A stretch of 62,994 nucleotides of DNA from Spirosoma fluviale. Lineage in GTDB: Bacteria; Bacteroidota; Bacteroidia; Cytophagales; Spirosomataceae. The position numbers were made by a program, and so were the translations under genes. Shown here piece by piece: positions 30,979 to 61,093 of the stretch. The notes below the pieces were generated by a model that worked only from the letters and a program-made list of their open reading frames with translations, did no database searches and had not been told where the DNA came from. The first letter of the stretch is position 1; every line of letters begins with the position of its first letter. Location of the stretch: positions 1 through 62,994 of the forward strand of contig CAMDRO010000009.1 in NCBI GenBank assembly GCA_945906795.1, in the 5' to 3' direction.

Positions 30979-31037
30979 CGTATACCAGATTTGCTTTCAC
31001 CCCCATAAAAAAATCCACCTCATAAGGGTGGATTCTG
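30979..31037 (+). repeat. Partial copy of the dispersed element, serving as terminator of the next gene
   Basis: GATTTGCTTTCACCCCCATA followed by AATCCACC (31012-31019), a 7-nt loop and GGTGGATT (31027-31034) is the central part of the element with a changed loop. On the minus strand the hairpin runs into a T tract (TTTTTTTATGG), so it also terminates the large heme-binding gene that ends at 31062. Confidence 0.65.
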
Positions 31038-31061
31038 TTAGTCACAAATAGCGTTTGATGA

Positions 31062-34000
31062 TTATTTTAATGTACGGATATAAGATAATAAGTCTGCCAC
31101 TTGCTTATCGGTATAATTGTCAATCAAACCTTTTACCATGAAAGAGCGGCCTCCCAGAAAACCTTGGTTTTGGATGGACCCTGCGTCAATAAATACTCTG
31201 CTACCTCCCATAAAAGCAAGGGTGGTCCCGCGGGCATCTTTATTGACCAAATAACCTTCTATACTTTGACCATCTTTTTTTCTCACACGGTAAACCGCAT
31301 AATTTGATTCTACGGCTGCATCTGGATTGAGGATGGCCGTAATGATTGCTTCGTAGTCGCGGGAAGCAGAGCCGTCTAAGGCCGGTGCAATATTCTGTCC
31401 CTTATTGCCGACCTGATGACACAATAGACAAGTCTGAAAAAGTACCTTTCCTTGATTGGGGTTTCCTCCGTTTTTGTTAGCAATGGCCATGTATCTGCTA
31501 AGGTCCCCTTCAAATGCTTTCTTCTTTTCCTCTTCACGCTTTTTAACTCCTTCCATCATGGCTTGTCCACGTGGGTCACCGCGATGGGTATTGACAATGC
31601 GTTCTGCTGAAGAAAGATTGAAGGCCGACAAATCCAGCCCTTTTTGTTCATACACATTCATTAATACGGCAGCACTCTGGCGTGAGCCGGATAAAATACT
31701 GACCATTTCTGCTTTTTCAGTCGCTTTAAGATCAGGGATCCATTTCAGTAAAACCCTTTCTCCGTCATTGGGGCTCGCCTTTGAAAGGCTATTCAGTGCG
31801 GCTGCACGTACCTCAAAACTTAATTTTTTATTCTGAACAATTCGCATAAATACTTCTTGACTGGCTTTGGGATTAATCTCTAATGCTTTCAAGGCCAGTT
31901 TTAATGTATTATCTGAGCTTTGATCCTTGATTAATGAAACAATAGCGTCTCTTAGTTTTTCCATTTTAAAACGCCCAATCACATCCAGCGCCAGGTCTAT
32001 GTTGGCCTGCGAATCACTCTGAAGCAATATGTTGACTGGAACCAAAAGCATATTGGCCATTTCAGGGGATTGTACCTGAGCTAGATTTTGCAAAGCGAAA
32101 TTGATATACGCTGCGGCATTAACCGGATTTTGGACTACTTGCTTTACAGCCTCATAAATCTCTTGGTTGCCCAGCATTTCCGCAATGGCTATAAACGTAG
32201 ATTCGTCGAGTGTCGTGATATGAGTTTCAGGCCAAAATTTTAGAAAAGACTTTTCCCTTTGTCCAACAGGTAATGCTTGGATGGCCCACAATATATTTGC
32301 GACAGGAATATCGGTGGCGATCGGAGCGTTTATATACGTTTGTAATTCGACTGCGTATTGTTCGAGCGCCTTGCGGGCCAGAAAACGTTCAAATTTTCTC
32401 TCATAAGCCCCACCCATAGCATTCCCCGGGATTTCGGGTTTACAGGCACGAACCAGAATGTCAATAACAGACGGGTCGGCTCCGCCGGCTTCTGTCAGCG
32501 TACGAAGGACTTGAGAGCGGACAGCTGGATTCTTATCTTCTATGAGCTCTTTTAGTGAACTGGCCATTTGTGCCGGGAGTAGAGAAAAGCTGGTCAGGGA
32601 ACGAACAGCCTCACGCCTAAGATTGTGCAATGGGGATTTTAAAAGCGAAGAAAGAAGTTTGGCATCATACTGTTTAATTCCTTCCAATGACCATAGGGCA
32701 TGTATTCTAGTGACTTCATCCTGGGATTGGTCGGAAGCCATGGCTACAAGTTCCACAGCTAAGGTCTTAGTTTCTGAGATAGGGCGATCTGAGATCTGAT
32801 GCCATGCTGCACGTTTTTCCCAAAGTGAGGGTGATTTAAGGTGATTGACCAGTTCTTCCGTTTTTACCACATTTAAATCTGGGATCATTCGTGGTTTTTG
32901 ACTGACATGACGGATACGCCAGATACGGCCATGTGACTTATCCCGATCCGGATGTGTGGTCGGTAGTTCATTGTGGGAAATGATTTTGTTGTACCAATCA
33001 GCGATGTAGAGGGATCCATCTGGGCCAAACTCCATGTTAACCGGGCGAAACCAGTCGTCTTCCGAGGTCAGCAAATCCGGTACATGTTTCGCTGTAACCG
33101 TGCCATCCGGATTACGGACGATCTGAACTGCGTTGATCGAACTGGTGATCGGATTTGCCAAAAACGCTACATTTTTATACTCATCTGGAAATGACCCAGA
33201 GGCATCATCAGCAAATGCCGTTCCCGATATTCCTGTTCCACCCACACGGAATTCGTGAAGTGTAGGTATGAATGGCTGATAAGGACTGAGCCGTTCATTG
33301 CCAATGCCCGGAAAGCCCGAACCGGGTTCCATGGGGGCAACAGAATATCCCAAATCATTCGCTTCAGAACCATACCACTGACCATTCCCACGGAGCTGAA
33401 AGCCCCAAATATTATTGAGACCAGAACTGACCAGTTCCAGTTTTTTTGCATCCAAAGATAAGCGGGCGATCTTGCTGTAATCGATCTTCAGTTTTGCATC
33501 GCTTTTTAAAGAAGAAACTCCACTTTTATTGAGGGCGCCCTGGCTGAAATGAATCCAATCGCCGGGTGCCCGAATGAGCACATGCGCCATCGTGTGGGTA
33601 TCTGTAAAACCAAAACCGGTGAGTAGGGGAGTCCGTTGGTCTGCTTTTCCATCCTGATTGGTATCACTCAGAAAAAACAGCTCTGAACCTTGCACCACAT
33701 AAGCTCCATTCTTATAGGGTAAAATACTCATGGGAATAGTCAGGCCATCGGCCCAGATGTTGGTTTTCACGGGATTCCTGCCATACAGCTCAGAGAACAC
33801 CAGTATTTTGTCGGTACCTTTTGTTTTGCCCTGATAGAGATCCAATATCCGTTTAAAGTTCGGATGATTTTTCTGCGCTTCTGGGTCATCCATGAGTTTC
33901 AGTAAATCATTCCATTGAATGTCGGCGATCGGGTCCAAAGGGTACATGATTGCGGTCTGGGTCCAGAGCCTTCCCGCATCATCGAAAGTGAGGTCGATCG

Positions 34001-34199
34001 GGTTGATAAGACCGTCTCTTTCGCTGGCAACGAGTTCAACAATGAAGCCCTCAGGTACTTTGAATCCTGCAAGCTCCTGTTCGGGGGTATAAACCTGCGT
34101 GCGTACCGACTGAGTTTTTTTTGATTGAGCCAACACGGTGGGGGCAAATGTCAGGTTAGTGACCATTAAGGCTGAAATGAATACAAGGATAAGCTTCAT
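31062..34199 (-). CDS. Membrane-bound dehydrogenase-type protein with HEAT repeats and cytochrome c domain (PVC type)
   Basis: Large secreted redox protein of 1045 residues of the family first noted in Planctomycetes/Verrucomicrobia. Order: signal peptide (to about 24, VLAQ); a sugar-dehydrogenase-like beta-propeller (KVPEGFIVELVASERDG ... FGPDGSLYIADWYNKII, to about 410); a HEAT-repeat solenoid (about 430-880); and a C-terminal cytochrome c domain with heme motif CLLCH near residue 923 and a likely Met ligand further on. Followed by IRTLK at the end. Usually paired with DUF1080 proteins, and one lies 94 nt upstream here. It presumably oxidises a sugar derivative and passes electrons to periplasmic carriers. 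DNA of this gene pair is clearly richer in G+C than its neighbours. Confidence 0.87.
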   Translation of the reverse strand: MKLILVFISALMVTNLTFAPTVLAQSKKTQSVRTQVYTPEQELAGFKVPEGFIVELVASERDGLINPIDLTFDDAGRLWTQTAIMYPLDPIADIQWNDLLKLMDDPEAQKNHPNFKRILDLYQGKTKGTDKILVFSELYGRNPVKTNIWADGLTIPMSILPYKNGAYVVQGSELFFLSDTNQDGKADQRTPLLTGFGFTDTHTMAHVLIRAPGDWIHFSQGALNKSGVSSLKSDAKLKIDYSKIARLSLDAKKLELVSSGLNNIWGFQLRGNGQWYGSEANDLGYSVAPMEPGSGFPGIGNERLSPYQPFIPTLHEFRVGGTGISGTAFADDASGSFPDEYKNVAFLANPITSSINAVQIVRNPDGTVTAKHVPDLLTSEDDWFRPVNMEFGPDGSLYIADWYNKIISHNELPTTHPDRDKSHGRIWRIRHVSQKPRMIPDLNVVKTEELVNHLKSPSLWEKRAAWHQISDRPISETKTLAVELVAMASDQSQDEVTRIHALWSLEGIKQYDAKLLSSLLKSPLHNLRREAVRSLTSFSLLPAQMASSLKELIEDKNPAVRSQVLRTLTEAGGADPSVIDILVRACKPEIPGNAMGGAYERKFERFLARKALEQYAVELQTYINAPIATDIPVANILWAIQALPVGQREKSFLKFWPETHITTLDESTFIAIAEMLGNQEIYEAVKQVVQNPVNAAAYINFALQNLAQVQSPEMANMLLVPVNILLQSDSQANIDLALDVIGRFKMEKLRDAIVSLIKDQSSDNTLKLALKALEINPKASQEVFMRIVQNKKLSFEVRAAALNSLSKASPNDGERVLLKWIPDLKATEKAEMVSILSGSRQSAAVLMNVYEQKGLDLSAFNLSSAERIVNTHRGDPRGQAMMEGVKKREEEKKKAFEGDLSRYMAIANKNGGNPNQGKVLFQTCLLCHQVGNKGQNIAPALDGSASRDYEAIITAILNPDAAVESNYAVYRVRKKDGQSIEGYLVNKDARGTTLAFMGGSRVFIDAGSIQNQGFLGGRSFMVKGLIDNYTDKQVADLLSYIRTLK

Positions 34200-36194: not shown

Positions 36195-36343
36195 ATTTAC
36201 TTCCCTGAAATAAAAGAATCCACCCTTTTGAGGTGGATTCTGGTGTACCCAAAGGCCGTCTCGATACTGTTGCTAACAAATTTTAATCGGATCAAAATCA
36301 AACACTCCTTAAGGGAATACCAATTAGTTTGATGACGTACCAT
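36195..36343 (+). repeat. Dispersed element copy with hairpin and right end
   Basis: Contains the conserved hairpin AGAATCCACC/GGTGGATTCT (36215-36241), then GGTGTACCCAAAGGCCG, ACACTCCTTAAGGG and the right terminus CAATTAGTTTGATGACGTAC. The left half is missing. The right end touches the start of a gene relic at 36342, so the insertion probably cut that gene. Confidence 0.8.
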
Positions 36344-36517: not shown

Positions 36518-36741
36518 TAAGCTAAATGCGTATTTGGTCCACTATTTAGATTTTATAGAATGAAACCACTCCCCTATGCTAACTTGTTTACTTCTTTGTT
36601 TTGTTTAAAATGATGTAATTTTTTAATCTTTGGTAACATTAAACATTTCATACGGAAATACTGATCGACAAGTTTGACAACGGAGAATGGCATGAATATA
36701 CCTTAGAATCAATGGCATCTTTCAATGCTGTTTGGATTAAA
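36518..36741. other. Region with a faint element trace and a possible gene relic
   Basis: GAAACCACTCCCCTATGCTA then CTTGTTTACTTC (about 36561-36600) resembles the right half of the dispersed element as seen at 40680. After it, one plus-strand frame (from about 36645) reads DKFDNGEWHEYTLESMAS and stays open to the next terminator without a start; this may be another gene tail, but I do not recognise it. Confidence 0.3.
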
Positions 36742-39658: not shown

Positions 39659-40654
39659 ATGCTTAGAAAAAATATCTTGGACTGTATAGGCAACACTCCT
39701 ATGGTCAAACTTAATAAAGTGGTGCCTCAAGACGCCGCTAATATCTATGTCAAACTCGAGTACTTTAATCCTTCTGGGTCTAAAAAGGATCGAATGGCTT
39801 TAGCGATGATAGAAGGTGCTGAAAAAAGAGGCACACTGAAAAAAGGCATGAGGGTAGTGGAATATTCCGGAGGAAGTACTGGGGCTGCGCTTGCGTTGAT
39901 TTGTTCTCTTAAAGGCTATCCATTTAGATTAATTACCTCCAATGCATTTAGTAAAGAAAAGATAAATATGATGCGCGCCTTAGGAGCCCAATTAGAAATT
40001 ATTGAGAGCCCTGATGGAAAAATATCAAAGTCCGTTATTGACGCCATGGTTTCAAGGGCTACTGAAATTGCCAAAGAACCCAATACTTTTTTTACTAATC
40101 AATTATCAAACAATGATGTGCTGGATGGATTTGAGCAATTAGGAAAAGAGATTATTGATCAATTAAAGGGTATAAAAGTCGATGCTATTTGCGATAGTGT
40201 AGGAACAGCCGGAACCCTTATGGGAATTTCACGCGCATTTAAAGGTTCAGATAGACCTCAATTTATTGCCTTAGAGCCTTCAAGTTTACCTGTTTTGACA
40301 TCAGGAGAAAAAGGATCTCAAAGTGTGGAAGGTATTGGATTAGGTTTTATTCCTGCACTGCTCGATATGAAACATTATGACAAAGCAATGGCCATCGATG
40401 AAAAAGAAGCCAGAGTCATGGCTAAGCGGTTGGCAAAGGAAGAGGGCATTTTTGCAGGAACATCCACTGGCATAAATGTGGCTGGAGCCATAGAAATAGC
40501 AAAGACATTAGGGCCAAATAAAAATATAGTGGTGGTAGCCTGCGATGCTGGATTGAAATATTTAAATGAAGGCCTGTATTTTATAAAGGCCAACACCATC
40601 TTACACGATTGGATCTTAATTAGATCAAAACCGAACCAGATTAATCCATTCTAA
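39659..40654 (+). CDS. Cysteine synthase-family PLP enzyme (beta-replacing), specificity open
   Basis: Fold-type II PLP enzyme of the cysteine synthase/cystathionine beta-synthase family, 331 residues. Seen: IGNTPMVKL (10-18), the PLP lysine in GSKKDR (Lys43), phosphate loop GTAGTLMG, SVEGIGLGFIP and a late GTSTGINVAGA. The substrate loop that in CysK is TSGNTG reads SGGSTG (70-75), so the conserved Asn is Ser here, which argues against plain O-acetylserine sulfhydrylase activity. No sulfur-assimilation gene lies near; the gene stands alone after a broken lipoprotein gene and before a degenerate copy of the dispersed element. Related enzymes make siderophore or antibiotic precursors such as 2,3-diaminopropionate. 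Confidence 0.8.
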   Translation: MLRKNILDCIGNTPMVKLNKVVPQDAANIYVKLEYFNPSGSKKDRMALAMIEGAEKRGTLKKGMRVVEYSGGSTGAALALICSLKGYPFRLITSNAFSKEKINMMRALGAQLEIIESPDGKISKSVIDAMVSRATEIAKEPNTFFTNQLSNNDVLDGFEQLGKEIIDQLKGIKVDAICDSVGTAGTLMGISRAFKGSDRPQFIALEPSSLPVLTSGEKGSQSVEGIGLGFIPALLDMKHYDKAMAIDEKEARVMAKRLAKEEGIFAGTSTGINVAGAIEIAKTLGPNKNIVVVACDAGLKYLNEGLYFIKANTILHDWILIRSKPNQINPF

Positions 40655-40800
40655 TTTTATCACCCTCTTTATACGATTTGTGTAAGATGAAATCACTCCC
40701 CTGTGCTAATTTGTTTGCTGCTAGGTTTTATTTTACTTAAAATGAATTAATTTGTACGTCGGTAATTCTTGGGCCAAAATCTTGAATAACAGAACCACAA
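40630..40800 (+). repeat. Degenerate copy of the dispersed element (right half)
   Basis: AATCCATTCTAATTTTATC, ATGAAATCACTCCCC, TGTGCTAATTTGTTTGCTGC and TTTACTTAAAATGAATT match the order of the right half in clear copies (TTGTGCTC..TTTGCTGCTTGG..TTTATTTAAAATG). TTGTACGTCGGTAATT near 40751 may be a remnant of an end. The hairpin is absent. Confidence 0.45.
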
Positions 40801-43499: not shown

Positions 43500-43734
43500 T
43501 ATATGGATACAATAAAATTAATTGCCAAAAATTGTAATCAGTTTTCTGCCTTTATCTACTAATTTTTAATCTACATATTAAAGTATAAAACAAAATATTT
43601 AAAAATCAAATATAATGAATGAATTTATATGATCACATGTAATTAGAACTAAGTATTATAATTAACGATACAGCATTTATTTTATTTCTCATTTATGAAA
43701 ACTCTCTCTCTGGTTGAAATCATTCCTATTGCTT

Positions 43735-44010
43735 CCTAATGAGCTACCAAACCCCCTGAAAATACAGAATCCACCCTTTTGAGGTGGATTCTGGTGTACC
43801 CAAAGGCCTACTCGATGATTACACTATTGGATCTTAATCAAATCAATACGAAACCCATATTTTTCAATGCAAGAAAATTGGATTATTCAATTCGATTCAG
43901 TTGGGTTAAAATCAATTCTTTGTGCGCTCTTGTTTGCTGCTTGGATTAAAATGGGATGTGTTTTATTTAAAATGTATTGATTGCATCGTTCGAATTCATA
44001 AAGTATGACG
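43735..44010 (+). repeat. Dispersed element copy, hairpin plus right half
   Basis: Contains GAGCTACCAAACCCCC, the perfect hairpin AGAATCCACC/GGTGGATTCT (43766-43792), GGTGTACCCAAAGGCC, GAAACCCATATTTTTCAATG, GATTATTCAATTCGATTCAG, and TTGTTTGCTGCTTGGATTAA. Both termini are lost. On the minus strand the hairpin leads into a T-poor tract, so termination of the FAD gene (ends 44044) would be weak. The wider gap 43500-44043 has no gene. Confidence 0.8.
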
Positions 44011-45961: not shown

Positions 45962-46010
45962 TGTAAAGCGTTAGCAAAATTGGATCAATAGAGTCTTTCT
46001 CCAAGGTTGA
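45962..46010 (+). repeat. Degenerate left end of the dispersed element
   Basis: TGTAAAGCGTTAGCAAAATT then GGATCAATAGAGTC matches the left terminus TGTAAATCGTCAGCAAAATT/GGACCGATAGAG with a few changes. Nothing of the element body follows. Confidence 0.5.
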
Positions 46011-46198: not shown

Positions 46199-47494
46199 CT
46201 AGAGCTTATAAAGAAGGGTTTTTGAAATCGCTTCTTTTAATTCTTTTTTTACGTTTGTTTGTGTTGCGAAATCATTCCATTTGCTAATAGCAAAACGTAC
46301 TTGATCGATGATTAAATGGGCTTTTTTGATGTTCATTTTTTGTGCTACTTGCAATAAGTCATCTCGAGTAATGTTCATTCTTTTCCCATTTATACTTAAT
46401 GAGTGCTGACTTACCCAGGAACTTCCGGGGCGATAAGCATGGCAAATATCAAAGGCTGGAGCTAATTTCCATTGACCTGTTTTGTCCATGATAAATGAAA
46501 AATTCTTCGTGTGATCATCGCAATTTCTGGCCATTACATTAAATACCATTCTGCGGTATAGTTGTTCTGCATCCGTGTAGGGTAAAAGCATGCTTCGCAT
46601 GGTTTCAAATAGCTGCTCATAGCTAAATGAGGTAATTTCATTAAAGTCACTGTGGGTAATGGCGCAAAAACTTTGAACATGAAGCTTTTCATTAGTAGCT
46701 TCTCTATCAAATCGCTTTGTCATAAAATGGGCTCTGTTATTTTCTTCAAACAACCTGCATTCGCTCATTTCAATCGATGCTTCTTTGGCCATTAAGTAAT
46801 AAGCCATTTCCACTCGACCATAACCCGATGAAGTACCTATTTGTTGATCGGTGACACCGTCAAATTTTATTAGCCACTGAGTGAATCCGTTCGGCGCATT
46901 TGCTTGCCCAGATTGAATTTCATTCGTGATGGGATTGAATGCGATGACGGCCTTTGCTCTAGCGCCACCTGCAGAGGTGCCTATTTTTAAAATATCACTT
47001 AAGACTTTTGCTTCCTCACTCGAAAGGGTCGTATTGAAATTTTGTTTTCCCAAAAGTATTTCTTCGGCCATCTGAATCAAGCCTTTTAACTCGATTTTAG
47101 TGGTCTCATTATATATTTTAGGTAACATGGGTTCAAATTCTAATGCCCCCATTCCTCTTTGACCTATAAAACAAAGTAACTCTACTGGATTCATGCTATC
47201 TGTGGGTCGTCCATGGCTAGCTAACCAGGCATTGATTAAACTATTTCCATATTTATCAGGTAATACATCGGCTAATAATCCGGGTAAACCTTTGAAAGTA
47301 GATGTACCTCTTAATTCAGGGAAGGAGAATATTTGTTTTTCTGCGCCTAAAATGGGCATTTTCAAGGGGGCTAAATCCCAGTTTTTAGTAAGCAATTTAG
47401 GTTCATATTCAAATGAAGCTAGTCCATTGGTATCATCCCAAACAATGGCTCCCACTCGTTCATTCCAGATATTGATCAATGCGGTTGAAATCAT
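46199..47494 (-). CDS. hipA: HipA-type Ser/Thr kinase toxin
   Basis: Toxin kinase of a HipBA module; HipA of E. coli phosphorylates glutamyl-tRNA synthetase and causes dormancy. 431 residues with both classic domains: N-terminal HipA_N (IWNERVGAIVWDD ... FSFPELRGTSTFKGLPGLLADVLPD) and kinase core. Visible active-site parts: phosphate/auto-phosphorylation loop IGTSAGGARAK (171-181), ATP-binding LIKFDG, catalytic NCDDHTKNF (Asp327 and Asn331 region) and metal-binding APAFDICHAY (Asp349). All key residues are present, so the toxin should be active. It is translationally coupled to the antitoxin gene by a 1-nt overlap (TAATG). Confidence 0.92.
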   Translation of the reverse strand: MISTALINIWNERVGAIVWDDTNGLASFEYEPKLLTKNWDLAPLKMPILGAEKQIFSFPELRGTSTFKGLPGLLADVLPDKYGNSLINAWLASHGRPTDSMNPVELLCFIGQRGMGALEFEPMLPKIYNETTKIELKGLIQMAEEILLGKQNFNTTLSSEEAKVLSDILKIGTSAGGARAKAVIAFNPITNEIQSGQANAPNGFTQWLIKFDGVTDQQIGTSSGYGRVEMAYYLMAKEASIEMSECRLFEENNRAHFMTKRFDREATNEKLHVQSFCAITHSDFNEITSFSYEQLFETMRSMLLPYTDAEQLYRRMVFNVMARNCDDHTKNFSFIMDKTGQWKLAPAFDICHAYRPGSSWVSQHSLSINGKRMNITRDDLLQVAQKMNIKKAHLIIDQVRFAISKWNDFATQTNVKKELKEAISKTLLYKL

Positions 47495-47844
47495 TACCAG
47501 TCGCTTTTAGATTTTTCAGTTAGGTTTTTTTTCCTGCTTGCTTTCTGGCGTTTGTTTTGTTCCAATTTTGCTAATTGTAGCGGGCTTAGCTGCGGTTGTT
47601 TTACCTCAAAATTTTGAAATAATTGAAGTTGTCCTAATGCTCTTAAAACTTGCAATAGGGAAAGCATCGTGGCGCCGCCTCCGTTTTCGATTTGAACTAA
47701 CGTTGATCGGTTGACTCCAGCTGCAGAAGCCACTTGCTGCTGAGTTTTATTCTGCTGTAATCGAGTTTGTTGAATAAACTTGCCTAGCATTTCTAATAGA
47801 GCAGGGTCGCTCATGGCGTGCCAATAATTGATTCCTTTTTCCAT
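47494..47844 (-). CDS. hipB: HipB-type XRE antitoxin
   Basis: 116 residues; XRE-type HTH at about 24-75 (IQQTRLQQNKTQQQVASAAG, then VNRSTLVQIENGGGATMLSL). It would bind HipA and the shared promoter. The C-terminal tail is very basic (KLEQNKRQKASRKKNLTEKS), longer than in E. coli HipB, perhaps for DNA or toxin contact. It is the first gene of the module; the upstream DNA holds two inverted repeats around a -7 box (listed separately), consistent with autorepression. Confidence 0.92.
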   Translation of the reverse strand: MEKGINYWHAMSDPALLEMLGKFIQQTRLQQNKTQQQVASAAGVNRSTLVQIENGGGATMLSLLQVLRALGQLQLFQNFEVKQPQLSPLQLAKLEQNKRQKASRKKNLTEKSKSDW

Positions 47845-47991: not shown

Positions 47992-48093
47992 TGTAAATCG
48001 TCAGCAAAATTGGACCGATAGATTTTATTTCTTGTATTGATTAATTTTAAACAAACCTATATTTCAACTGAAAACCCTTCTAATGAGGGCTTT
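47992..48093 (+). repeat. Dispersed element copy, left end
   Basis: TGTAAATCGTCAGCAAAATT then GGACCGATAGAT marks the left terminus; TTAATTTTAAACAAACC and ATTTCAACTGAAAACCC follow. In the last, the TTTCG/CGAAA arms of other copies read TTTCA/TGAAA, a compensated change. The body stops at the 3' end of the M28 gene, and AAAACCCT..AGGGCTTTTT there can end its transcription on the minus strand. Confidence 0.75.
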
Positions 48094-49362: not shown

Positions 49363-49439
49363 CGGACAATGTTTAATCCGACAATATTACACAATTACCT
49401 ACAGAAAGGATTGAACGTTTGGGAAAAGGAATCAGTCAG

Positions 49440-49687
49440 GCTGACTCGACAGCTTAAAATTTATTTTAATCGGATTAATACATTACAGGATTATTCTAGT
49501 CCAATTTCTTTGACTTATTCCATATGATTTTCGGTTTTTAAAATCAGTTCCTTGTGTTCTCCTGTTTACTGCTTGGTCCTAAAGGTGGTTGTTTTATTTT
49601 AAATGAAATTAATACTAAATTTGATTAAATAGGAAACAATAGGTAAGGAAAAGGCCATTTCGGTTTGACGAGGTACAGTGTAAATTA
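49440..49687 (+). repeat. Dispersed element copy, right half with right end
   Basis: TTTTAATCGGATTAATAC, AAAATCAGTTCCTTGTG, TGTTTACTGCTTGG, CCTAAAGGTGGTTG, TTTATTTTAAATGAAATTAA and finally CGGTTTGACGAGGTACA are in the same order as in the copies at 53466 and 57880. The hairpin and the left half are missing. The gap 49363-49758 has no gene. Confidence 0.7.
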
Positions 49688-50607: not shown

Positions 50608-50700
50608 GGTAAATTGTCAACAAAATTGGACCGATAAAACCATTTTGTTTAATTTTAAACAAACCCACATTTCACCTGAAAACCCCTCTCGTGCTACCCG
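50608..50700 (+). repeat. Dispersed element copy, left half
   Basis: GGTAAATTGTCAACAAAATT then GGACCGATAAAACC, TTGTTTAATTTTAAACAA (palindrome), CATTTCACCTGAAAACC and CTCTCGTGCTACCCGATT. The second hairpin has arms TTTCA/TGAAA in place of TTTCG/CGAAA. The copy breaks off before the large hairpin. Confidence 0.8.
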
Positions 50701-50753
50701 ATTAGCCACAAGGCTAAAAAACCGGCAAACAGGACATTCACTTTTTAAAGTTG

Positions 50754-50852: not shown

Positions 50853-51965
50853 ATGGCAAAATTTGACCGAAAAATTCCTTATAACGACTTGCCCTTGCTA
50901 CCACCAAAGGCAGATATAGAAACAAAACGCATACTTCGAAAAACAATTTCGGCTGGACGAGCATTGGCACAACTAAATGGAACTTTACTCAATTTACCCA
51001 ATCCTACGCTGTTTTTAGACACGATTTATTTACAAGAAGCGAAAGCGAGTTCAGAAGTAGAAAACATTATTACAACAAACGATGAACTCTACAAATCATT
51101 AGTTGCTATTAGAAAAATAGAAAATTCAGCTACAAAAGAAGTTTTATGCTACAAGGAAGCATTGTGGTTAGGCTTAGAAGAATTAAAAACAAAACCATTT
51201 ATAACAACCAATCTTTGTGTCAAAATAGTTCAGTGCATTAAACAAAATAACGCTTCAATACGAAATATCCCAGGTACTACATTGAGCAACATACAAGGCG
51301 AAGTTATTTACACCCCGCCGAATGGTGAAATGATTATTCGTGAGAAGTTAGCAAACTTAGAAAAGTTCACAAACGAAGATGAAATCATTTTTGGTGAGGA
51401 AAGTCGAACCATAGATCCATTAATAAAAATGGCCATGTTGCACTATCAATTTGAAGCTATACACCCATTTTCTGACGGTAATGGAAGAACAGGAAGAATT
51501 TTATTGTTATTGTATCTAAAACTTTCAGGCTTATTGGACACACCTGCACTCTACTTGAGTGAATATATTATTAAAAATAAGGTTGAATATTATAGGTGCT
51601 TACGGGATGTAACCGAAAAAAGCGAATGGGAAGATTACATTTTGTATATGTTGGATATGATTGAAGTGACTGCCAATAAAGGACTTAAAAGACTAAATAA
51701 AATCACTACTGAAATGGAAAAAACTGCCGCCGAAATCAAAAAGAAGTTGCCAAAAGTTTATTCTAAGGACTTGGTTGAGATTTTATTCCGTTTACCATAT
51801 ACCAAACGTCAGCATTTGATTGATGAAAATATTGGAAATTTGAAGACAGTTGGAAATTACTTGATAGCGTTAAAAGCAAACGGCTTTTTGAAATCAGAAA
51901 AAGTGGGGAAAGAGAAACTATACTTAAACCCAATACTATTAGAAATATTAGAGAACAAAGAATAA
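50853..51965 (+). CDS. Fic-domain protein (class II type) with C-terminal helical/wHTH part
   Basis: Adenylylating (or related) Fic enzyme of 370 residues. N-terminal cover region with an inhibitory motif SSEVEN (66-71, pattern S/T-x-x-x-E-G/N), which blocks the ATP site until it is moved. Catalytic loop HPFSDGNGRTGR (204-215) is complete with His204. The C-terminal part (about 290-370: KRQHLIDENIGN ... LKTVGNYLIALKANGFLKSE) looks like a winged helix. Targets unknown. The gene has its own promoter with direct repeats and lies between element copies; a second, unrelated-in-detail Fic gene follows 395 nt later. No Fic antitoxin (FicA/VbhA type) is encoded nearby, as expected for the intramolecularly inhibited class. 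Confidence 0.93.
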   Translation: MAKFDRKIPYNDLPLLPPKADIETKRILRKTISAGRALAQLNGTLLNLPNPTLFLDTIYLQEAKASSEVENIITTNDELYKSLVAIRKIENSATKEVLCYKEALWLGLEELKTKPFITTNLCVKIVQCIKQNNASIRNIPGTTLSNIQGEVIYTPPNGEMIIREKLANLEKFTNEDEIIFGEESRTIDPLIKMAMLHYQFEAIHPFSDGNGRTGRILLLLYLKLSGLLDTPALYLSEYIIKNKVEYYRCLRDVTEKSEWEDYILYMLDMIEVTANKGLKRLNKITTEMEKTAAEIKKKLPKVYSKDLVEILFRLPYTKRQHLIDENIGNLKTVGNYLIALKANGFLKSEKVGKEKLYLNPILLEILENKE

Positions 51966-52039: not shown

Positions 52040-52236
52040 TGTAAATTGTCAGCAAAATTGGATCGTTAAAGGGGTTATTTCTTGAATTGTTTAATTTTAA
52101 ACAAAGTTTCATTTCGATCGAAAATCCCTCTCGTGCTACCTGTTTTGCTTTCGCTTCCGTAAAATAAAAGAATCCACCCTTTTGAGGTGGATTCTGGTGT
52201 ACCCAAAGGGAATACCAATTAGTTTGACGACGTACA
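52040..52236 (+). repeat. Complete short copy (197 nt) of the dispersed element with both ends
   Basis: Left end TGTAAATTGTCAGCAAAA followed by TTGG; right end CCAA followed by TTAGTTTGACGACGTACA. Reversed, the right end reads TGTACGTCGTCAAACTAA then TTGG, so the ends are 22-nt imperfect inverted repeats with about 16 matching positions. Between them lie TTGTTTAATTTTAAACAA, TTTCGATCGAAA and the hairpin AGAATCCACC/GGTGGATTCT (52169-52195). The right half seen in long copies is deleted from CCCAAAGG to the right end. No target-site duplication is obvious. The gap 51966-52360 contains no gene. Confidence 0.85.
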
Positions 52237-52358: not shown

Positions 52359-52360
52359 AA

Positions 52361-53404
52361 ATGAGTTTATTGATCAATAACCTTCGACTTGATTTGGACA
52401 TGAAATTAATGTCTGAATTATCCATCATTGAACGCTTTGATGCTACCTGGTCTAATATAGAAAAAAGAGATCATGCGACATTGAAGCAATTGAAGTCGAT
52501 CGCGACAGTAAAAAGTGTGGGTGCTTCCACAAGGATTGAGGGGTCAAAAATGACCGATGATGAAGTCGCTGTGTTCATTGAGAAGATACATATATCTGGT
52601 TTTGAAGAACGAGATCAACAAGAGGTAGCTGGATATTTTGAGACCCTAGATATTATTTCCGAAAACTTTACATCGATTGAAATTACGGAAAGCCAAATTA
52701 AGGGCTTGCACAATCTTTTATTGAAATATGGAGAAAAGGATGCTTGGCATCGAGGTCAATACAAACAAGTAAGTAATGTGGTGGAAGCCAATTTGCTAGA
52801 CGGCACGAAACAAATTGTTTTTAGGACAACTGATCCAGGTCTTCAAACGCAGGATGCTATGGCTCGTTTAATCGAGTGGTATCATCAGGACCAAGAAACT
52901 TTTCCACTGGTTAAAGCCGCTTTGTTTGTATATGAATTTTTAAGTATTCATCCATTTCAAGATGGCAATGGAAGACTCAGCAGATTATTGGGCAATTTAC
53001 TTCTTTTAAAAAATGGCTATACTTGGATGCAATATGTAAGTTTTGAGCATGAGATTGAAAATAGAAAATCGGCATATTACAAAGTACTTATGGATGCACA
53101 ACGTAATAGACCAGGTGAAAACGTAACTGAATGGCTAACATTTTTTGTAGGTTGTTTAAGTCATATTCAAAGCAATTTATTGTTGACATTAAATCAAAGT
53201 AGGAAGCTCACTGATTCATTAAGTCCACGAGAAGAAAGAGTCCTATTTTTTATTCATAATCATCCTAGAAGTGGATCAGGTGAGATTTCAAAAAAATTGG
53301 ACATAGCACTTCCTACCGTGAAGAAAACGCTTACAGACTTATTGGTTAAGGGAATCATTTCAAAAGAAGGGCTTGGAAAAGCTACCGTTTATTATAGCGT
53401 TTAA
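52361..53404 (+). CDS. Fic-domain protein (class II type) with C-terminal winged-helix domain
   Basis: 347 residues. N-terminal helix bundle with inhibitory motif STRIEG (56-61), a complete catalytic loop HPFQDGNGRLSR (197-208, His197), and a flap rich in VSNVVEANLLDG. The C-terminal 60 residues (SLSPREERVLFFIHNHP ... GSGEISKKLDIALPTVKKTL) form a winged helix-turn-helix, so it may bind DNA and regulate itself. The architecture differs from the first Fic gene (50853-51965), and the two share little sequence outside the motif, so this is not a recent duplication. It is bordered by element copies. Targets cannot be predicted. Confidence 0.93.
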   Translation: MSLLINNLRLDLDMKLMSELSIIERFDATWSNIEKRDHATLKQLKSIATVKSVGASTRIEGSKMTDDEVAVFIEKIHISGFEERDQQEVAGYFETLDIISENFTSIEITESQIKGLHNLLLKYGEKDAWHRGQYKQVSNVVEANLLDGTKQIVFRTTDPGLQTQDAMARLIEWYHQDQETFPLVKAALFVYEFLSIHPFQDGNGRLSRLLGNLLLLKNGYTWMQYVSFEHEIENRKSAYYKVLMDAQRNRPGENVTEWLTFFVGCLSHIQSNLLLTLNQSRKLTDSLSPREERVLFFIHNHPRSGSGEISKKLDIALPTVKKTLTDLLVKGIISKEGLGKATVYYSV

Positions 53405-53465: not shown

Positions 53466-53835
53466 TGTAAATCGTCAGCAAAATTGGACCGATAAAACCA
53501 TTTTGTTTAATTTTAAACAAACCCACATTTCGATCGAAAGCCTATCTCGTGCTACCCGATTTGCTACCGCTCCCATAAAATAAAAGAATCCACCCTTTTG
53601 AGGTCGATTCTGGTTTACCCAAAGTCCGAGTCGATAGGTTTACTAACAAATTGTAATAAGATCAGGACAAAACCCAAATTTTACAAATCAATAAAATTGG
53701 ATGATTCAATTCGATTCGAGTGGATTAAAATCAGTTCCTTGTGCTCATTTATTTGCTGCTTGGACCTAAAGGTGGTTGTTTTATTTAAAATGATATTAAT
53801 GCTAAATTCGAATCAAAATTAATCACTCCTTAAGG
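53466..53835 (+). repeat. Longest copy of the dispersed element (about 370 nt)
   Basis: Left end TGTAAATCGTCAGCAAAATT, palindromes TTGTTTAATTTTAAACAA and TTTCGATCGAAA, CATAAAATAAAAG, hairpin AGAATCCACC/GGTCGATTCT (53585-53611, one mismatch), then the full right half (CCGAGTCGATAGG, GATGATTCAATTCGATTCG, TTTGCTGCTTGG, TTTATTTAAAATG) up to AATCACTCCTTAAG. In place of the right terminus there is a new left end, so two copies are joined head to tail. The gap 53405-53943 has no gene. Confidence 0.85.
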
Positions 53836-53892
53836 TGTAAATCGTCAGCAAAAAGTGGACCGATAGAGGTTATTTCTTAGGGAGTGTTTCCA
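53836..53892 (+). repeat. Isolated left end of the dispersed element
   Basis: TGTAAATCGTCAGCAAAAAG then TGGACCGATAGAGG, TTATTTCTTAGGGAGTGTTTC. It is nearly identical to the isolated end at 61040-61093. CTTAGGGAGTGTTTCC is the inverse of the ACACTCCTTAA seen near right ends, so the terminal repeat extends to about 50 nt. Confidence 0.8.
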
Positions 53893-53943
53893 AACAATTA
53901 TTAAATTACAAAATGGAAACAAGAAAAAGCAAACAGCAGAAAA

Positions 53944-54894
53944 TTACATCAAAGACATCCAAGCTACTTTAAGCACAGTATCATGTTCTTTTCCAATGAT
54001 GTCTCTGTAAAGTTCTGGTCTTCTAGCATTTAAATATCTGGTACCTCCTGCTTTTTCTATATTAGCATGAATTAATTCTGCTGAAACATAGGCGTCATCA
54101 AATGTTCTGCATTCTGCCATAATATCACCAAAGGGATCAATAATCATTGAACAGCCATTTTTTAATTGATCATCATCCATGCCTATGGGATTAGAGAAGA
54201 TCACATATACGGCATTGTCATAAGCTCTTGAGGGCAGCCATTTCATTAGCCATGCTCTGCCTTTTAAACTATCAAACTCGTTGATCAGTGTCATGGGATC
54301 ATTGTGGCGATTATGCCATAATGCAGGATCAACAAATCCAGCACCTGGTCTGGTAGAAGGCGTACACATGGTTACATGTGGCATAAAAATGATCTCAGCG
54401 CCTAATAATTTTGTGGCCCTTACATTTTCAAAAATATTATTATCATAGCATATGAGTATGCTACATTTCCATCCTTTCAAATCAAAAATGCAATATTCAT
54501 TTCCTGCACTTATGTATTTATTAATAAAGGGGCTTAATTTTCTATATTTGGCAATAAGCCCATTTTCATCCACACATACATAGGCTTTGTATATATGATC
54601 ATCTTTATCTTTTTCAAATAATCCTGCTAATAAAATAATTTTATATTTTTTTGCAATACGAATTAAAGATTGAATAGATTCTCCATCCGGAATACTTTCG
54701 GCCACTGTTAAAAATTCCTCTTTGTTTAATTTTGAAGCGAAAGTGTAACCAGTAATAGAGCATTCATGAAATGAAAGTACTTCAATACCTTCTAAAGCCG
54801 CTTTTCTAGCTAGTTCATCGATCACCGAGAGGTTATAGGCTTTGTCGCCACTTTTATTTTCAAATTGAGCGGTAGCTATTTTGATAGGGTTCAT
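53944..54894 (-). CDS. Carbon-nitrogen hydrolase (nitrilase superfamily)
   Basis: Cytosolic amidase or nitrilase-type enzyme, 316 residues, no signal peptide. The catalytic Glu-Lys-Cys triad is visible: Glu44 in LSFHECSITGY, Lys119 in KYRKLSPF and Cys149 in ILICYDNN. Also GRAWLMKWLPSRAYDN and SNPIGMDDDQ. Branch unknown; similar single-domain proteins hydrolyse N-carbamoyl or amide compounds. No operon partner: an element copy on the 3' side and a 200-nt non-coding stretch with another copy on the 5' side. Confidence 0.9.
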   Translation of the reverse strand: MNPIKIATAQFENKSGDKAYNLSVIDELARKAALEGIEVLSFHECSITGYTFASKLNKEEFLTVAESIPDGESIQSLIRIAKKYKIILLAGLFEKDKDDHIYKAYVCVDENGLIAKYRKLSPFINKYISAGNEYCIFDLKGWKCSILICYDNNIFENVRATKLLGAEIIFMPHVTMCTPSTRPGAGFVDPALWHNRHNDPMTLINEFDSLKGRAWLMKWLPSRAYDNAVYVIFSNPIGMDDDQLKNGCSMIIDPFGDIMAECRTFDDAYVSAELIHANIEKAGGTRYLNARRPELYRDIIGKEHDTVLKVAWMSLM

Positions 54895-55093: not shown

Positions 55094-55252
55094 TGTAAAT
55101 CGTCAGCAATCATTGGACCGATAGAGTCTTTTCAATAGGAGTGTTTAATTTTAAGCAAACCCTCATTTCGATTTTAAAATCGTCTCGTGTTACCCGATTT
55201 GCTACCGTTCCCGTAAAATAAAAGAATCCACCCTTTTGAGGTGGATTCTGAT
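55094..55252 (+). repeat. Dispersed element copy, left half with hairpin
   Basis: TGTAAATCGTCAGCAATCAT left end, GGAGTGTTTAATTTTAAGC, a palindrome CGATTTTAAAATCG in place of TTTCGATCGAAA, CGTGTTACCCGATTTGCTAC and the perfect hairpin AGAATCCACC/GGTGGATTCT (55223-55249). It stops 60 nt after the 3' end of the small lipoprotein gene (55312, minus). The gap 54895-55311 contains no gene. Confidence 0.8.
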
Positions 55253-55311
55253 GATTGAGATAGATTTGGTTGAACTATGCTCATTTAAACAAGATTCAAA
55301 AGCGAGAGATG

Positions 55312-57879: not shown

Positions 57880-58250
57880 TTTTGGTATTGTTTAAAATTA
57901 AACAAACCCGAATTTCGTCCGAAAACCCATCTCGTGCTACCTGTTTTGCTACCGCTCCCGTAAAATAAAAGAATCCACCTTTTTGAGGTGGATTCTGGTG
58001 TATCCAAAGGCCGAGTCGACAGGTTTACTTTCAAATTTTAATCGGATCAAGACGAAACCCATATTTTACAAATTAAGAATATTGGATGATTCAATTCGGT
58101 TCAGGTGGGTTAAAATCAGTCTTTTGTACTCTCTTGTTTGGCGCTTAGATTAAAATGGGATTTGTTTTATTTTAAATGGAATTAATGCTAAATTAGATTA
58201 AATTGGAAACACTCCTTAAACAAAAGTTCAATTTAGTTTGACGACGTATA
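57880..58250 (+). repeat. Long copy of the dispersed element lacking only the left tip
   Basis: Palindrome TTGTTTAAAATTAAACAA (centre changed, arms kept), TTTCGTCCGAAA, CTCGTGCTACCTGTTTTGC, CCCGTAAAATAAAAG, hairpin AGAATCCACC/GGTGGATTCT (57970-57996), GGCCGAGTCGACAGG, GATGATTCAATTCGGTTCAG, TTAATGCTAAATTAGATT, GGAAACACTCCTTAAAC and the right terminus ATTTAGTTTGACGACGTATA. It lies just in front of the TauE/SafE gene; the gap 57542-58266 has only this and the small gene relic. Confidence 0.85.
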
Positions 58251-58266
58251 TTAAAATGTATTTAAA

Positions 58267-59124
58267 ATGGTTAATATCATATGGTTAGTATTGGTTTTAT
58301 TTGCCTTATTATATATTTATGTTTTTGCTGTTGATATCATTAAAAACAGAAACAATCTTGAAAATGTAAGTTGGGTTAAAACGGGACTTATTGGTTTTGT
58401 GGTAAACTTTTTTGACGTATTGGGTATTGGTGCGTTTGCGCCACAAACAGCTCTTTTAAAGTTTACCAAACAAACCTCCGATAAATTAATTCCAGGCACT
58501 ATGAATGTGGCAAACACATTGCCGGTTTTAATTCAGGCGCTCATTTTTATTCAAGTTGTTGAAGTGGAGCCTATAACTTTAGTCGTTATGTTTTTAACCG
58601 CAATGATTGGTGCAATTTTGGGTGCTGGTATTGTTGGAAAACTTTCCGAGAAAAATATAAGGTTAACCATCAGTATTGCATTATTAATTACAGCAGGTTT
58701 CATGTTCGCTAACAAAATGCACTGGATACATGGCGAAGGTGTGGCGATTGGAATTCATGGATGGAAATTAGTTATAGCAGGAGTTGTTAATTTTATTTTA
58801 GGTGCCATGATGACTGCTGGCGTTGGTTTATATGCACCCTGTATGGCGTTAGTTTATATGTTGGGATTATCACCTCAGGTGGCGTTTCCTATCATGATGG
58901 GATCATGTGCGTTTTTAATGCCACCGGCTTCCTATAAATTTATAAAATCAGGAGCTTATAATAAAAAAGCGGCATTAGGGATGGCTATTCCTAGTATTTT
59001 TGCTGTGTTGATTGCTGCATTGATTATTAAATCTTTACCATTGGATACCTTAAGATGGTTGGTGCTTATGATCATCTTATACACTTCAATAACCATGTTT
59101 TTGAGTGCTATAAAAAGTAAATAA
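58267..59124 (+). CDS. TauE/SafE (TSUP) family membrane transporter
   Basis: 285 residues, about eight hydrophobic helices. TSUP marks: KTGLIGFVVNFFDVLGIGAF near the start, MNVANTLPVLIQALIF, MTAMIGAILGAGIVGKLSEKN-like middle (here FLTAMIGAILGAGIVGKLSE), and GVVNFILGAMMTAGVGLYAP with a following MGSCAFLMPPAS. The family exports or imports sulfite, sulfoacetate and other organic anions. It is 42 nt upstream of the serine dehydratase gene on the same strand; the pairing suggests transport of a small carboxylate made or used by that enzyme, but this is inference. An element copy ends 16 nt upstream, so the promoter may lie within its right end. Confidence 0.88.
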   Translation: MVNIIWLVLVLFALLYIYVFAVDIIKNRNNLENVSWVKTGLIGFVVNFFDVLGIGAFAPQTALLKFTKQTSDKLIPGTMNVANTLPVLIQALIFIQVVEVEPITLVVMFLTAMIGAILGAGIVGKLSEKNIRLTISIALLITAGFMFANKMHWIHGEGVAIGIHGWKLVIAGVVNFILGAMMTAGVGLYAPCMALVYMLGLSPQVAFPIMMGSCAFLMPPASYKFIKSGAYNKKAALGMAIPSIFAVLIAALIIKSLPLDTLRWLVLMIILYTSITMFLSAIKSK

Positions 59125-59166
59125 AAGGCTAAATATTAGTTGTCAATTTAATTAAAGCAAAAAGGT

Positions 59167-60744
59167 ATGTCAAATTATCCAAGTATATTTAATGATGTTA
59201 TTGGTCCAGTGATGCGAGGTCCCTCAAGTTCGCATTGCGCCGCCTCACTTCGCATAGCAAGAATTTGTCGTGATTTGATGGAAGAGCAAATCAAAGATAT
59301 TTTAATAACGTTTGATCCAAAGGGTTCATTAGCGACTACACATAAAAGTCAGGGATCAGACATGGGTTTATTTGGTGGATTTTTAGGTTGGGAAGCATAT
59401 GATGAACGTTTGCAAGATTCCGAAAAACACTTAGCCACCTCAGGAATTAATTATTCAATTAAAATTGATCATTTAGCTGAAAAGCACCCCAATACTTATC
59501 AAATATCATTGATCAATGATAAGGAAACCAGAGAATTAGTTGCCATTTCAACCGGAGGTGGTATGATTGAGGTTATTAATATTGATGGAAATAAAGTTTC
59601 AATAGCGGGCGATTATTTTGAAACTTTAATTTATTGCACAGAGGCTACAAGTATCATTAATTATCTAGAGGCAACGGTAGTATTTGATGAAATCAATTTT
59701 CATCATGGTGATCATTCTTTCATTGAAATTAAATCTCAAAATAGAATACCTGAAAATATTTGTAATGAAATAAAGCAAATGCCTACGGTAACTTTTATTA
59801 AAGCGATTAATCCGGTGCTTCCAATAATGGCACGAAAAAATATAAAGGTTCCATTTATTTCTTGTAATGAAATGATGGAATACAATAAAGGCAAAAATAA
59901 AGCACTCTGGGAGTTGGCTGTTGATTATGAGAGTATCCGAGGCAATATTAGCCCTGCATTCGTAATGGAAAAGATGAAAGAGATTATTCAAATTATGCGT
60001 AATGCAATTGATACAGGATTAAAAGGAACTAAATATAAGGATCGCATTTTAGGGAGTCAATCTCCTCATTATAAAGAATTATTTGAAGCGAATCAATTAA
60101 TTGGCGGCGACGTTATTAATAAAACTATTATGTATGTTTCTGCCATTATGGAGGTTAAAAGTTCAATGGGTGTTATTGTTGCTGCTCCCACTGCAGGTTC
60201 CTGTGGTGGATTGCCAGGTGTAGTATTTGGTACTGCAGATTGTATTCATAATAATGAAGACGCAATTATAAAAGCAATGTTATCTGCTGGTTTAATTGGT
60301 GTTTTTATTGCAGCGCATGCAACTTTTGCAGCCGAGGTAGGAGGCTGTATGGCGGAAACGGGTTCAGGTGGTGGGATGGCAGCCGCTGCGCTCGTTGAAA
60401 TGAATGGCGGAAGTTTGGAGCAATCAATCGCAGCAGCTTCACTAGCACTTCAAAATTCATTAGGTATCATTTGTGATCCCATTGGCAATAGGGTTGAAGC
60501 ACCTTGTCTTGGCCGCAATGTTATGGCAGCAACTAACGCTATTTCATGTGCAAATATGGCATTGTCAAATTATGAGCATCTAATACCACTTGATGAAGTT
60601 ATTGAAACTATGAAGGCAGTGGGTGATCAAATTCATCACACATTACGTTGCACGAATCTAGGTGGGCTATCTATAACAAATGCTGCCAAAAAAATAGAAG
60701 CTTTACTAGAGGAAAATCCACCTGTTTTTTATAAAAGCTGTTAA
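59167..60744 (+). CDS. L-serine ammonia-lyase, iron-sulfur type
   Basis: Converts L-serine to pyruvate and ammonia with a [4Fe-4S] cluster. 525 residues with the fused beta (FNDVIGPVMRGPSSSHCAAS at 8-27, a hallmark) and alpha domains. Cluster cysteines: GSCGG (about 346) and the CDPIGNRVEAPC pair (436 and 447). Also AETGSGGGMAAAALVEMNGG. The length is somewhat above the bacterial single-chain enzyme (about 455), because the beta domain carries an insert around residues 80-230. It forms a probable operon with the TSUP transporter before it. An orphan location for an amino-acid enzyme, but the next genes on the other strand also act on amino acids. Confidence 0.9.
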   Translation: MSNYPSIFNDVIGPVMRGPSSSHCAASLRIARICRDLMEEQIKDILITFDPKGSLATTHKSQGSDMGLFGGFLGWEAYDERLQDSEKHLATSGINYSIKIDHLAEKHPNTYQISLINDKETRELVAISTGGGMIEVINIDGNKVSIAGDYFETLIYCTEATSIINYLEATVVFDEINFHHGDHSFIEIKSQNRIPENICNEIKQMPTVTFIKAINPVLPIMARKNIKVPFISCNEMMEYNKGKNKALWELAVDYESIRGNISPAFVMEKMKEIIQIMRNAIDTGLKGTKYKDRILGSQSPHYKELFEANQLIGGDVINKTIMYVSAIMEVKSSMGVIVAAPTAGSCGGLPGVVFGTADCIHNNEDAIIKAMLSAGLIGVFIAAHATFAAEVGGCMAETGSGGGMAAAALVEMNGGSLEQSIAAASLALQNSLGIICDPIGNRVEAPCLGRNVMAATNAISCANMALSNYEHLIPLDEVIETMKAVGDQIHHTLRCTNLGGLSITNAAKKIEALLEENPPVFYKSC

Positions 60745-60800
60745 ATAAATTGAGTTAACGTAAGAAAATATGAAAATTAACAAAATATGAACTTTGCAAA

Positions 60801-61039
60801 AAAATAAAACGTATTTCATTCATTCTTTTCATGTTAATCATAGGGAATACTATTTTTTCACAACCCGTTGATCGTTTTGTAAAAGTGATTGTTGTCGCGG
60901 ATCATGGGGATTAGTTATATTAAAAAGGAGAAAATGTTAAGTTCACTATTTCAGTATATAAAAATGGGAACTTGGTTAAAGATGCTAAAGTGCGGTTTGA
61001 AATTGCTACAGAAAGACAGGAGCCAATAAAAAAAGAAAC
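60801..61039 (+). pseudogene. N-terminal relic of an acetyl-xylan-esterase-like gene
   Basis: A signal-peptide-like start (KRISFILFMLIIGNTIFSQP) is followed by VDRFVKVIVVADHGD, then TAG, LY, TAA and KGENVKFTISVYKNGNLVKD, AKVRFEIATERQEPIKKETV. This resembles the Ig-like N-terminal part of Bacteroidota acetyl-xylan esterases, where the interrupted codons would be Trp and Lys. At 61040 the frame runs directly into a left end of the dispersed element, and nothing of the esterase follows. The start codon is also out of frame. Confidence 0.55.
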
Positions 61040-61093
61040 TGTAAATCGTCAGCAAAATTGGACCGATAGAGGTTATTTCTTAGGGAGTGTTTC
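61040..61093 (+). repeat. Isolated left end of the dispersed element, inside a gene relic
   Basis: TGTAAATCGTCAGCAAAATT, then GGACCGATAGAGG, TTATTTCTTAGGGAGTGTTTC. It is almost identical to 53836-53892 over its full length. It abuts the esterase relic on the left and the stop codon of the minus-strand dehydrogenase gene on the right. Confidence 0.85.

Follow-up and report, generated by a model that had tools for sequence, protein, structure and literature searches.

Why a non-coding repeat should recur many times along one stretch of chromosome and always point the same way is the question raised by contig CAMDRO010000009.1 of Spirosoma fluviale, the entire contig (C9; 62,994 nucleotides; hereafter, the window) of a 2.63-Mb draft genome in 100 contigs (G000; other G numbers denote further genomes). 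An earlier note on the window had described same-direction copies of one element separated by unrelated genes, and had proposed either a cassette-like array or a repeat family dependent on direction. Our analysis indicates that the copies are likely to be attachment-site (att) junctions of a tRNA-anchored, additive cassette array. Elements of this kind contact tRNA genes, contain a core and terminator derived from tRNA ends, bear an arm motif on both sides of that core and keep a fixed orientation, and their cassettes are exchanged between species. Going beyond the earlier note, the copies are most likely recombinase-type attachment junctions holding tRNA ends and terminators, many of them edged by inverted repeats of the insertion sequence (IS) type.

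By employing a profile built from element copies, with a match cut-off of E ≤ 1e-2 within the window, 15 matches to an element of approximately 392 positions were found between 27.8 and 61.1 kb, all of them on the + strand and with E values from 7.8e-102 to 5.2e-5. The description of many copies in a single direction was thereby borne out. Thirteen of the 14 main positions given earlier were recovered, as was a ‘trace’ reported at 27780 (match at 27756), whereas the copy at 45962 was seen only as a degenerate left-end motif and a second partial copy at 36557 had been overlooked. Likewise, the reported absence of copies from the first 27 kb was confirmed for the body of the element, although a lone right-end inverted repeat occurs there, at 16137-16150 on the - strand. 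A structured RNA family was dropped as a candidate, as no Rfam match at the gathering threshold was obtained for positions 27000-62994. The copies and remnants are the following:

16137-16160, - strand: isolated right IS-type end outside the array, in the opposite direction (exact 14-base match)
27756-27948, + strand: right half of a junction, degraded, the left-most array copy (model 156-356, E 2.2e-19; lowest consensus identity of the 15)
30983-31047, + strand: fragment, arm and terminator hairpin only (model 88-157, E 3.8e-8); the hairpin also lies where the terminator of a - strand gene ending at 31062 would be expected
36198-36330, + strand: terminator, core and start of the right arm (model 103-234), then a right end at 36326-36339
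36557-36678, + strand: second partial right part (model 257-391, E 2.8e-11)
40585-40762, + strand: right half of a junction (model 156-346, E 5.1e-25)
43692-43998, + strand: junction without left end (model 47-352, E 2.3e-65)
45962-45986, + strand: solo left IS-type end, degenerate (3 mismatches in 25 bases; missed by the profile)
47993-48081, + strand: left end and start of the left arm (model 1-82, E 2.5e-17)
49435-49675, + strand: right half of a junction (model 155-392, E 1.9e-40), right end at 49662-49675
50609-50707, + strand: left end and left arm (model 1-100, E 1.5e-24)
52041-52236, + strand: junction with an internal deletion, comprising left end, left arm, Val-type terminator identical to that of the genome’s own tRNA-Val, core and right end at 52221-52236 (E 7.7e-49, model 1-164)
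53467-53835, + strand: nearly full junction (model 1-371, E 1.2e-100)
53837-53970, + strand: left IS-type end running into the truncated start of a transposase gene, OrfA (profile 53837-53889, E 5.2e-5; the sequence beyond continues as the IS left end seen in contigs C66 and C81 of G000)
55095-55253, + strand: left end, left arm and terminator, stopping at the core (model 1-150, E 3e-39)
57884-58248, + strand: best junction, reaching the right end (model 34-392, E 7.8e-102); by eye from the model, left arm ~57884-57959, terminator hairpin 57970-57997, tRNA-end-like core ~57998-58011, right arm and right end to 58248
61041-61095, + strand: solo left IS-type end, the right-most copy (model 1-46, E 2.5e-6)

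Partial copies are the majority: those at 27756, 36557, 40585 and 49435 consist of the right part only and those at 47993, 50609, 53837 and 61041 of the left end only, while the copies at 53467 and 57884 are nearest to complete.

Read from the alignment, the model comprises a left inverted end (positions 1-36), a left arm (~37-110), a terminator hairpin (~110-145), a short core similar to the 3' end of a tRNA (~146-158), a right arm that reaches ~350 and a right inverted end that closes the element at 392. A two-box motif, AGCA-N8-AGCACRA, which was picked after inspecting the sequences, occurred 81 times in a 954-kb sequence set, always within elements, and was absent from the remaining 1,852,398 bases (both strands). 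It was exact in 60 of 84 left arms (77 with at most one mismatch) and in 20 of 47 right arms (35 with at most one mismatch), in the same direction on either side of the core. The boxes are putative arm-type binding sites of a recombinase. Copy starts cluster at the outer end (59/161 at model positions 1-8) and, among internal starts, at the arm edge (30/103 at 30-39); copy ends cluster at 385-392 (33/150), and internal ends are enriched at the core (15/117, p 1e-4). Therefore, the att block exists both with and without IS-type ends.

The connection with tRNA genes was observed in relatives and on other contigs of G000, where the left-arm block and terminator run directly into an intact tRNA gene. 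According to the profile, such contact is made with tRNA-Val(TAC) in 11 genomes (G000, G005, G006, G008, G009, G014, G018, G028, G029, G030 and G033); contact with tRNA-Glu(TTC) is found in five (G000, G011, G016, G026 and G028). Weaker remnants of the block were present at tRNA-Val in G004, G017 and G021. Among the 16 genomes in which the tRNA-Val locus was inspected, insert-free sites were seen in G012 and G019, where tRNA-Val is followed by the terminator hairpin and then by unrelated DNA, and in G015, G020 and G024, which have no block; in G016 the end of another element takes the place of the block. Since it is absent from the tRNA-Val of several relatives, the arm block is not the normal flank of this gene. 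As a separate observation, another kind of element end, containing a CTCTCGTTTACTTCTGTTTACTCTC-like stretch, is present at the 3' ends of tRNA-Val in G016 (L086) and of tRNA-Arg in G009 (L051, ~5900-6110); it apparently belongs to a second family that targets tRNA genes.

Copies lying inside arrays also carry the mark of a tRNA gene. Of 64 internal copies spanning the terminator, 33 were of the Val type (13 exact), eight of the Glu type and three of the type of the G006 tRNA-Val, so that a recognisable tRNA terminator was kept in 44, with up to four substitutions tolerated in the typing; the other 20 matched none of these types, and 14 further copies were attached to a tRNA. On the tRNA strand, Val-type internal copies read CTAGTGGGACCACCAGAATCCACC..., which is the tRNA-Val end together with its terminator, and Glu-type copies read ...CCGTACGG...AAACCACTCAGG..., as in tRNA-Glu, with CCGTACGG coming from the acceptor end of that tRNA. 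The last 13-15 tRNA bases were also retained in several internal copies. Many cores have degenerated, with GGGTACACCA in place of GGGACCACCA; this applies to most cores of the window.

Orientation was then compared over the 32 contig stretches with at least two att-containing copies. A total of 107 copies lay in the major and four in the minor direction (95 to 4 when the window was left out), compared with approximately 33 minor copies expected for random orientation, and never fewer than 20 in 2000 draws. IS-type ends on their own were mixed, with 18 in the same and eight in the opposite direction, in contrast to 106 and three for att-containing copies once one tied contig was dropped (Fisher p 8e-5), indicating that the direction rule belongs to the att part. 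The idea of a direction-dependent repeat family was, consequently, only partly right, as it applies to att-containing copies and not to the ends alone. Stacking at one tRNA explains the common direction, and replication-direction bias was set aside, indirectly, because the rule follows the tRNA. In G008, a block of contig C7 (13672-19595) holds copies in reverse between inverted right and left ends, and looks like a local inversion.

With regard to the DNA between copies, 89 intervals with a median of 2613 bp formed 47 clusters, 17 of which occurred in at least two genomes; these clusters are single-linkage and may chain (one mixes different cargo), and undetected copies may split cassettes unequally. 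Pairs of copies had only the right flank in common in 62 cases, only the left in 68 and both in 22. Where a neighbour was known at least twice, it differed in nine of ten clusters on the right and in seven of ten on the left. In 54 of 59 pairs of homologous cassettes, both members had the same direction with respect to the element. Three pairs from tRNA-Val and tRNA-Glu arrays have 128-206 bp of cassette DNA in common at 90-97% identity, not contiguous with the element, and exchange between the two kinds of array is only suggested by them. Thus, the proposal of a cassette-like array gained support: inter-copy DNA recurs in other species next to other neighbours, and copies sit at tRNA 3' ends in a direction fixed relative to the tRNA. 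Copies scattered in both orientations without a tie to variable genes, which had been named beforehand as the refuting outcome, were not found. As had been claimed, genes of unrelated families, on both strands, lie between the copies of the window, among them:

27981-29750, + strand: sulfatase, at the distal array end (Pfam PF00884)
29871-30467, + strand: SOUL haem-binding protein, at the distal array end (Pfam PF04832)
46199-47494, - strand: cargo HipA-like toxin (Pfam HipA_C, Couple_hipA)
47494-47844, - strand: cargo HTH antitoxin-like protein (Pfam HTH_3)
50853-51965, + strand: cargo Fic protein, SoFic-like (Pfam Fic_N, Fic, SoFic-like_C)
52361-53404, + strand: second cargo Fic protein (Pfam Fic)
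53944-54894, - strand: cargo carbon-nitrogen hydrolase (Pfam CN_hydrolase)
58267-60744, + strand: cargo TauE-like permease and iron-sulphur serine dehydratase (Pfam TauE, SDH_alpha, SDH_beta), a unit approximately 95-96% identical in G003 and G029
61095-62348, - strand: cargo flavin adenine dinucleotide (FAD)-dependent D-amino-acid dehydrogenase-like protein (Pfam DAO; best NCBIfam matches below cut-off)

An addiction-module antidote-like protein (dnstrm_HI1420) is encoded at 30649-30942, adjoining the fragment at 30983.

The position of the window relative to a tRNA was approached through its left array end, the sulfatase and SOUL genes, which was matched in G009, G016 and G018; G006 matched SOUL only. 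In G006, a complete genome on one contig, the SOUL gene (679,406-680,017, + strand) and tRNA-Val (726,717, - strand) lie 47 kb apart, on the side and strand expected from the window. The island fetched from this genome has four copies, all on the + strand and ending at tRNA-Val; it was the single island in the 55 kb fetched, and one 32-base BLAST match elsewhere was not confirmed by the profile. The left flank was also sought 18-92 kb from tRNA-Val in array-free genomes, which gave weak matches on the wrong strand that were not used. Further, copies of the window nearer to the presumed tRNA side were closer to the consensus (column-adjusted rho 0.71, p 0.007; 13 copies of at least 60 columns). 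The more degraded copies at the left fit with older cassettes having been pushed away from the tRNA.

These results can be accommodated in the following mechanism. Each cassette would carry one or a few cargo genes, flanked by a right-arm block on one side and a left-arm block on the opposite side, and would integrate as a circle at the 3' end and terminator of tRNA-Val(TAC), or of tRNA-Glu(TTC) in the sister array. The tRNA would stay intact, with each integration depositing a copy of its end and terminator between the new and the older cassette, so that repeated integration at one tRNA would stack cassettes with two-armed junctions, all in the same direction; seen in the orientation of the window, the tRNA would close the array on the right. 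We infer that cassettes move as circles, that the enzyme responsible for integration belongs to the tyrosine recombinase family present in G006, G030, G032 and G033, and that distance from the tRNA increases with the age of a cassette. Homologous recombination between direct junction copies probably reshuffles cassettes as well.

The candidate recombinase of G006, a 429-amino acid (aa) protein (Phage_int_SAM_5, Phage_integrase), is encoded 2.7 kb from tRNA-Val and just after a small HTH_17 protein. Its orthologues in G030, G032 and G033 are 97%, 89% and 85% identical, respectively, and lie 3.1 kb (G030) and 2.5 kb (G033) from tRNA-Val. The 27-kb recombinase segment (L060:6553-7203 and the G006 island) also encodes a resolvase, a DUF4007 protein, a PAPS-reductase-like protein, a helicase and a DNA methylase, and is a possible defence cluster. 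The source genome of the window, G000, encodes a XerD above cut-off, a XerC-like protein, an unassigned 347-aa recombinase and a broken one. A serine recombinase as the agent was dropped, as PF00239 was detected in three of ten large-array or related genomes and not in G000.

Several observations weigh against site-specific integration as set out above. The recombinase family reaches at least 85% identity in only four of 38 genomes of the genus (G006, G030, G032 and G033), and was unmatched at E ≤ 1e-3 in G000, G003, G008, G009, G016, G026, G028 and G029, which carry large arrays; such genomes are mostly incomplete metagenome-assembled genomes (MAGs), but G009 and G028 are listed as 98% complete. 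Accordingly, these arrays may be served in trans, by a missing contig, or by homologous recombination only. Aligning the two arms locally in direct orientation gave no significant similarity (250 of 1000 shuffles), and only the motif test reached significance. Internal copy starts were not enriched at the core (6/103, p 0.27), and the 15 ends that stop there derive from only about eight independent cassettes. The gradient of degradation was positive in only 13 of 20 stretches with at least three copies (six of seven with at least five). The window itself contains no tRNA, as the contig ends before one, and its tie to tRNA-Val therefore rests on terminator type and on synteny with G006. Neither an excised circle nor an empty and filled strain pair of one species was seen. 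Finally, switch points within junctions were scattered from ~29 to 237 in 14 right-sharing pairs and from 6 to 231 in 14 left-sharing pairs (seven of the latter with scores below 2), and no single crossover point could be mapped within junctions, which suggests that homologous recombination contributes.

It could thus be argued that mainly RecA-type homologous recombination between direct copies reshuffles the array and that site-specific integration belongs to the past. The scattered switch points and the lack of the candidate family in large-array genomes agree with this, as do copies that lie close together and are 60-90% identical to the consensus. Yet RecA-type exchange alone fails to explain the arrival of foreign cassettes, the tRNA ends in junctions or the two-sided arm motif, and several copies stop at the core; we regard its predominance as possible, albeit on the improbable side. 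Much less room is left for an ordinary family of miniature inverted-repeat transposable elements (MITEs), in which non-autonomous copies with IS inverted ends would have been spread by the IS transposase, the tRNA-like core being a chance capture and the direction having another cause. Many copies are indeed bounded by inverted ends, TGTAnnTCGTCA...TGACGAnnTACA, whose outer 30-50 bp equal the left end of an IS, presumably of the IS3 type, with an OrfA matching HTH_Tnp_1. Short forms of ~135-153 bp with both ends and no att core occur in several genomes, and the clustering of starts and ends at the outer edges also fits such a family. However, no target duplication (3-6 or 8 bp) was detected in any of 66 listed end pairings, a set in which every place was counted on both strands and loose pairings were included; direction is held by att-containing copies and not by ends alone; and core and terminator match tRNA ends, with blocks devoid of inverted ends sitting at tRNAs. 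On the strength of the missing duplications and of an orientation rule tied to the att part, a plain MITE was dropped and is considered very unlikely.

The reading as a chromosomal integron, with the copies as attC sites, is the least credible of all. In chromosomal integrons, same-direction recombination sites separate swappable cassettes with toxin-antitoxin-like cargo; the common direction, the cargo and the cassette exchange seen here recall this organisation, and the matches of the 347-aa recombinase of G000 include integron-integrase models. Those matches are below the NCBIfam cut-offs, as they are for all three intact G000 recombinases scanned. Moreover, the element measures approximately 392 bp and encloses a tRNA end and terminator, the genes separating the copies occupy both strands, and the 347-aa gene is located on another contig, between amidohydrolase and glycosyltransferase genes. 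Unlike in integrons, there is neither an intI above cut-off nor an attC-like site, as judged from the length and content of the element, and the sites derive from tRNA ends; the integron was dropped on the grounds of the integrase scores and this tRNA content. The 347-aa protein itself (G000, contig C13; L075:1459-2502, - strand) is an XerA/IntI-like tyrosine recombinase.

Returning to tRNA-anchored integration, the IS-type ends invite a further, tentative proposal, which we hold to be rather unlikely as a whole: a mobile attachment site. A two-armed, tRNA-type att module between IS-type ends would be planted by the IS transposase beside ordinary chromosomal genes, and a gene caught between two direct copies would become an excisable cassette. 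With a recombinase supplied in trans from another locus, it could pass from one species to another and between arrays of the tRNA-Val and tRNA-Glu kinds. An IS with the HTH_Tnp_1 OrfA was observed at 53837-53970 of the window, at the ends of contigs C66 and C81 of G000 and in L122. C66 and C81 break at an identical point inside it, as expected of a multi-copy IS. No intact copy of this IS was found, and its right end is therefore inferred.

The element also occurs beyond the window. The exact arm pattern occurred in 32 stretches of a genome collection (84,980 species), labelled Cytophagaceae, Cytophagales, ‘Spirosoma fluviale’, one ‘Chitinophaga pinensis’ and one ‘Flavobacterium sp.’ MAG. When relatives were searched, 22 of 36 genomes of the same genus besides G000 gave matches, some weakly, and among 22 other genomes only G045 did so, with two short matches. 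No match was obtained in viral contigs (exact pattern), phages or plasmids, and a phage or plasmid origin was dropped on this basis. Our literature search of Creative Commons-licensed PubMed Central papers found no paper describing this array.

Related arrangements are known. Integrative and conjugative or mobilizable elements accrete in tandem, and cis-mobilizable elements (CIMEs) without a recombinase keep both attachment sites and stack with their relatives; there, one or two large elements are involved, unlike the many tiny units described here. The closest likeness is to additive flexible genomic islands. In the parts consulted of the accounts on Alteromonas, ‘Ca. Actinomarinales’ and ‘Ca. 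Methylopumilus’, these islands have a conserved tRNA target, serial cassette addition and direct repeats of the tRNA 3' end at cassette ends (PMC4119200, PMC7771536, PMC10872708). In line with them, arrays of the kind described here border an intact tRNA, with tRNA-end direct repeats at cassette borders, insert-free sites in relatives and exchanged cassettes. The same parts of those accounts describe short tRNA repeats only (PMC4119200, PMC7771536, PMC10872708), in contrast to the two-armed junction of ~392 positions with a terminator and, often, IS-type edges; the cassettes are also short here, with a median of 2.6 kb. In Dehalococcoides, several ssrA-specific islands follow one another downstream of a single RNA gene; direct repeats of the 3' end of that gene delimit each island, and conserved sequence continues past the repeat; the target is tmRNA, the repeat has 20 bp, and 16 of 31 have an integration module with a serine recombinase (PMC3146451). 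The targets of the present arrays are instead tRNA-Val and tRNA-Glu, and their large-array genomes are without a recognisable dedicated recombinase. Tycheposons, as outlined in the portion of PMC10872708 drawn upon, are tRNA-linked cargo elements of aquatic bacteria with a tyrosine recombinase and 4-200 kb in size, unlike small cassettes with a common long junction.

The serial insertion of cassettes at a tRNA, marked by directly repeated tRNA ends, is, then, a known process, and the array displays the testable features of such islands. What is unusual is the combination of a long two-armed junction, small cassettes, IS-type edges and a recombinase missing from large-array genomes, which raises the question of what keeps arrays dynamic in genomes where a dedicated recombinase was not found. 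The puzzling single direction of this repeat family has a clear reason, being set by the tRNA target, and a compact pool of cassettes is seen to be shared within a genus of freshwater Bacteroidota. The presence of IS-type ends around an attachment site further suggests a testable route by which ordinary genes may become cassettes; if the mobile attachment site proves true, it would amount to an integron-like cassette-making system built from a tRNA attachment site and an IS.

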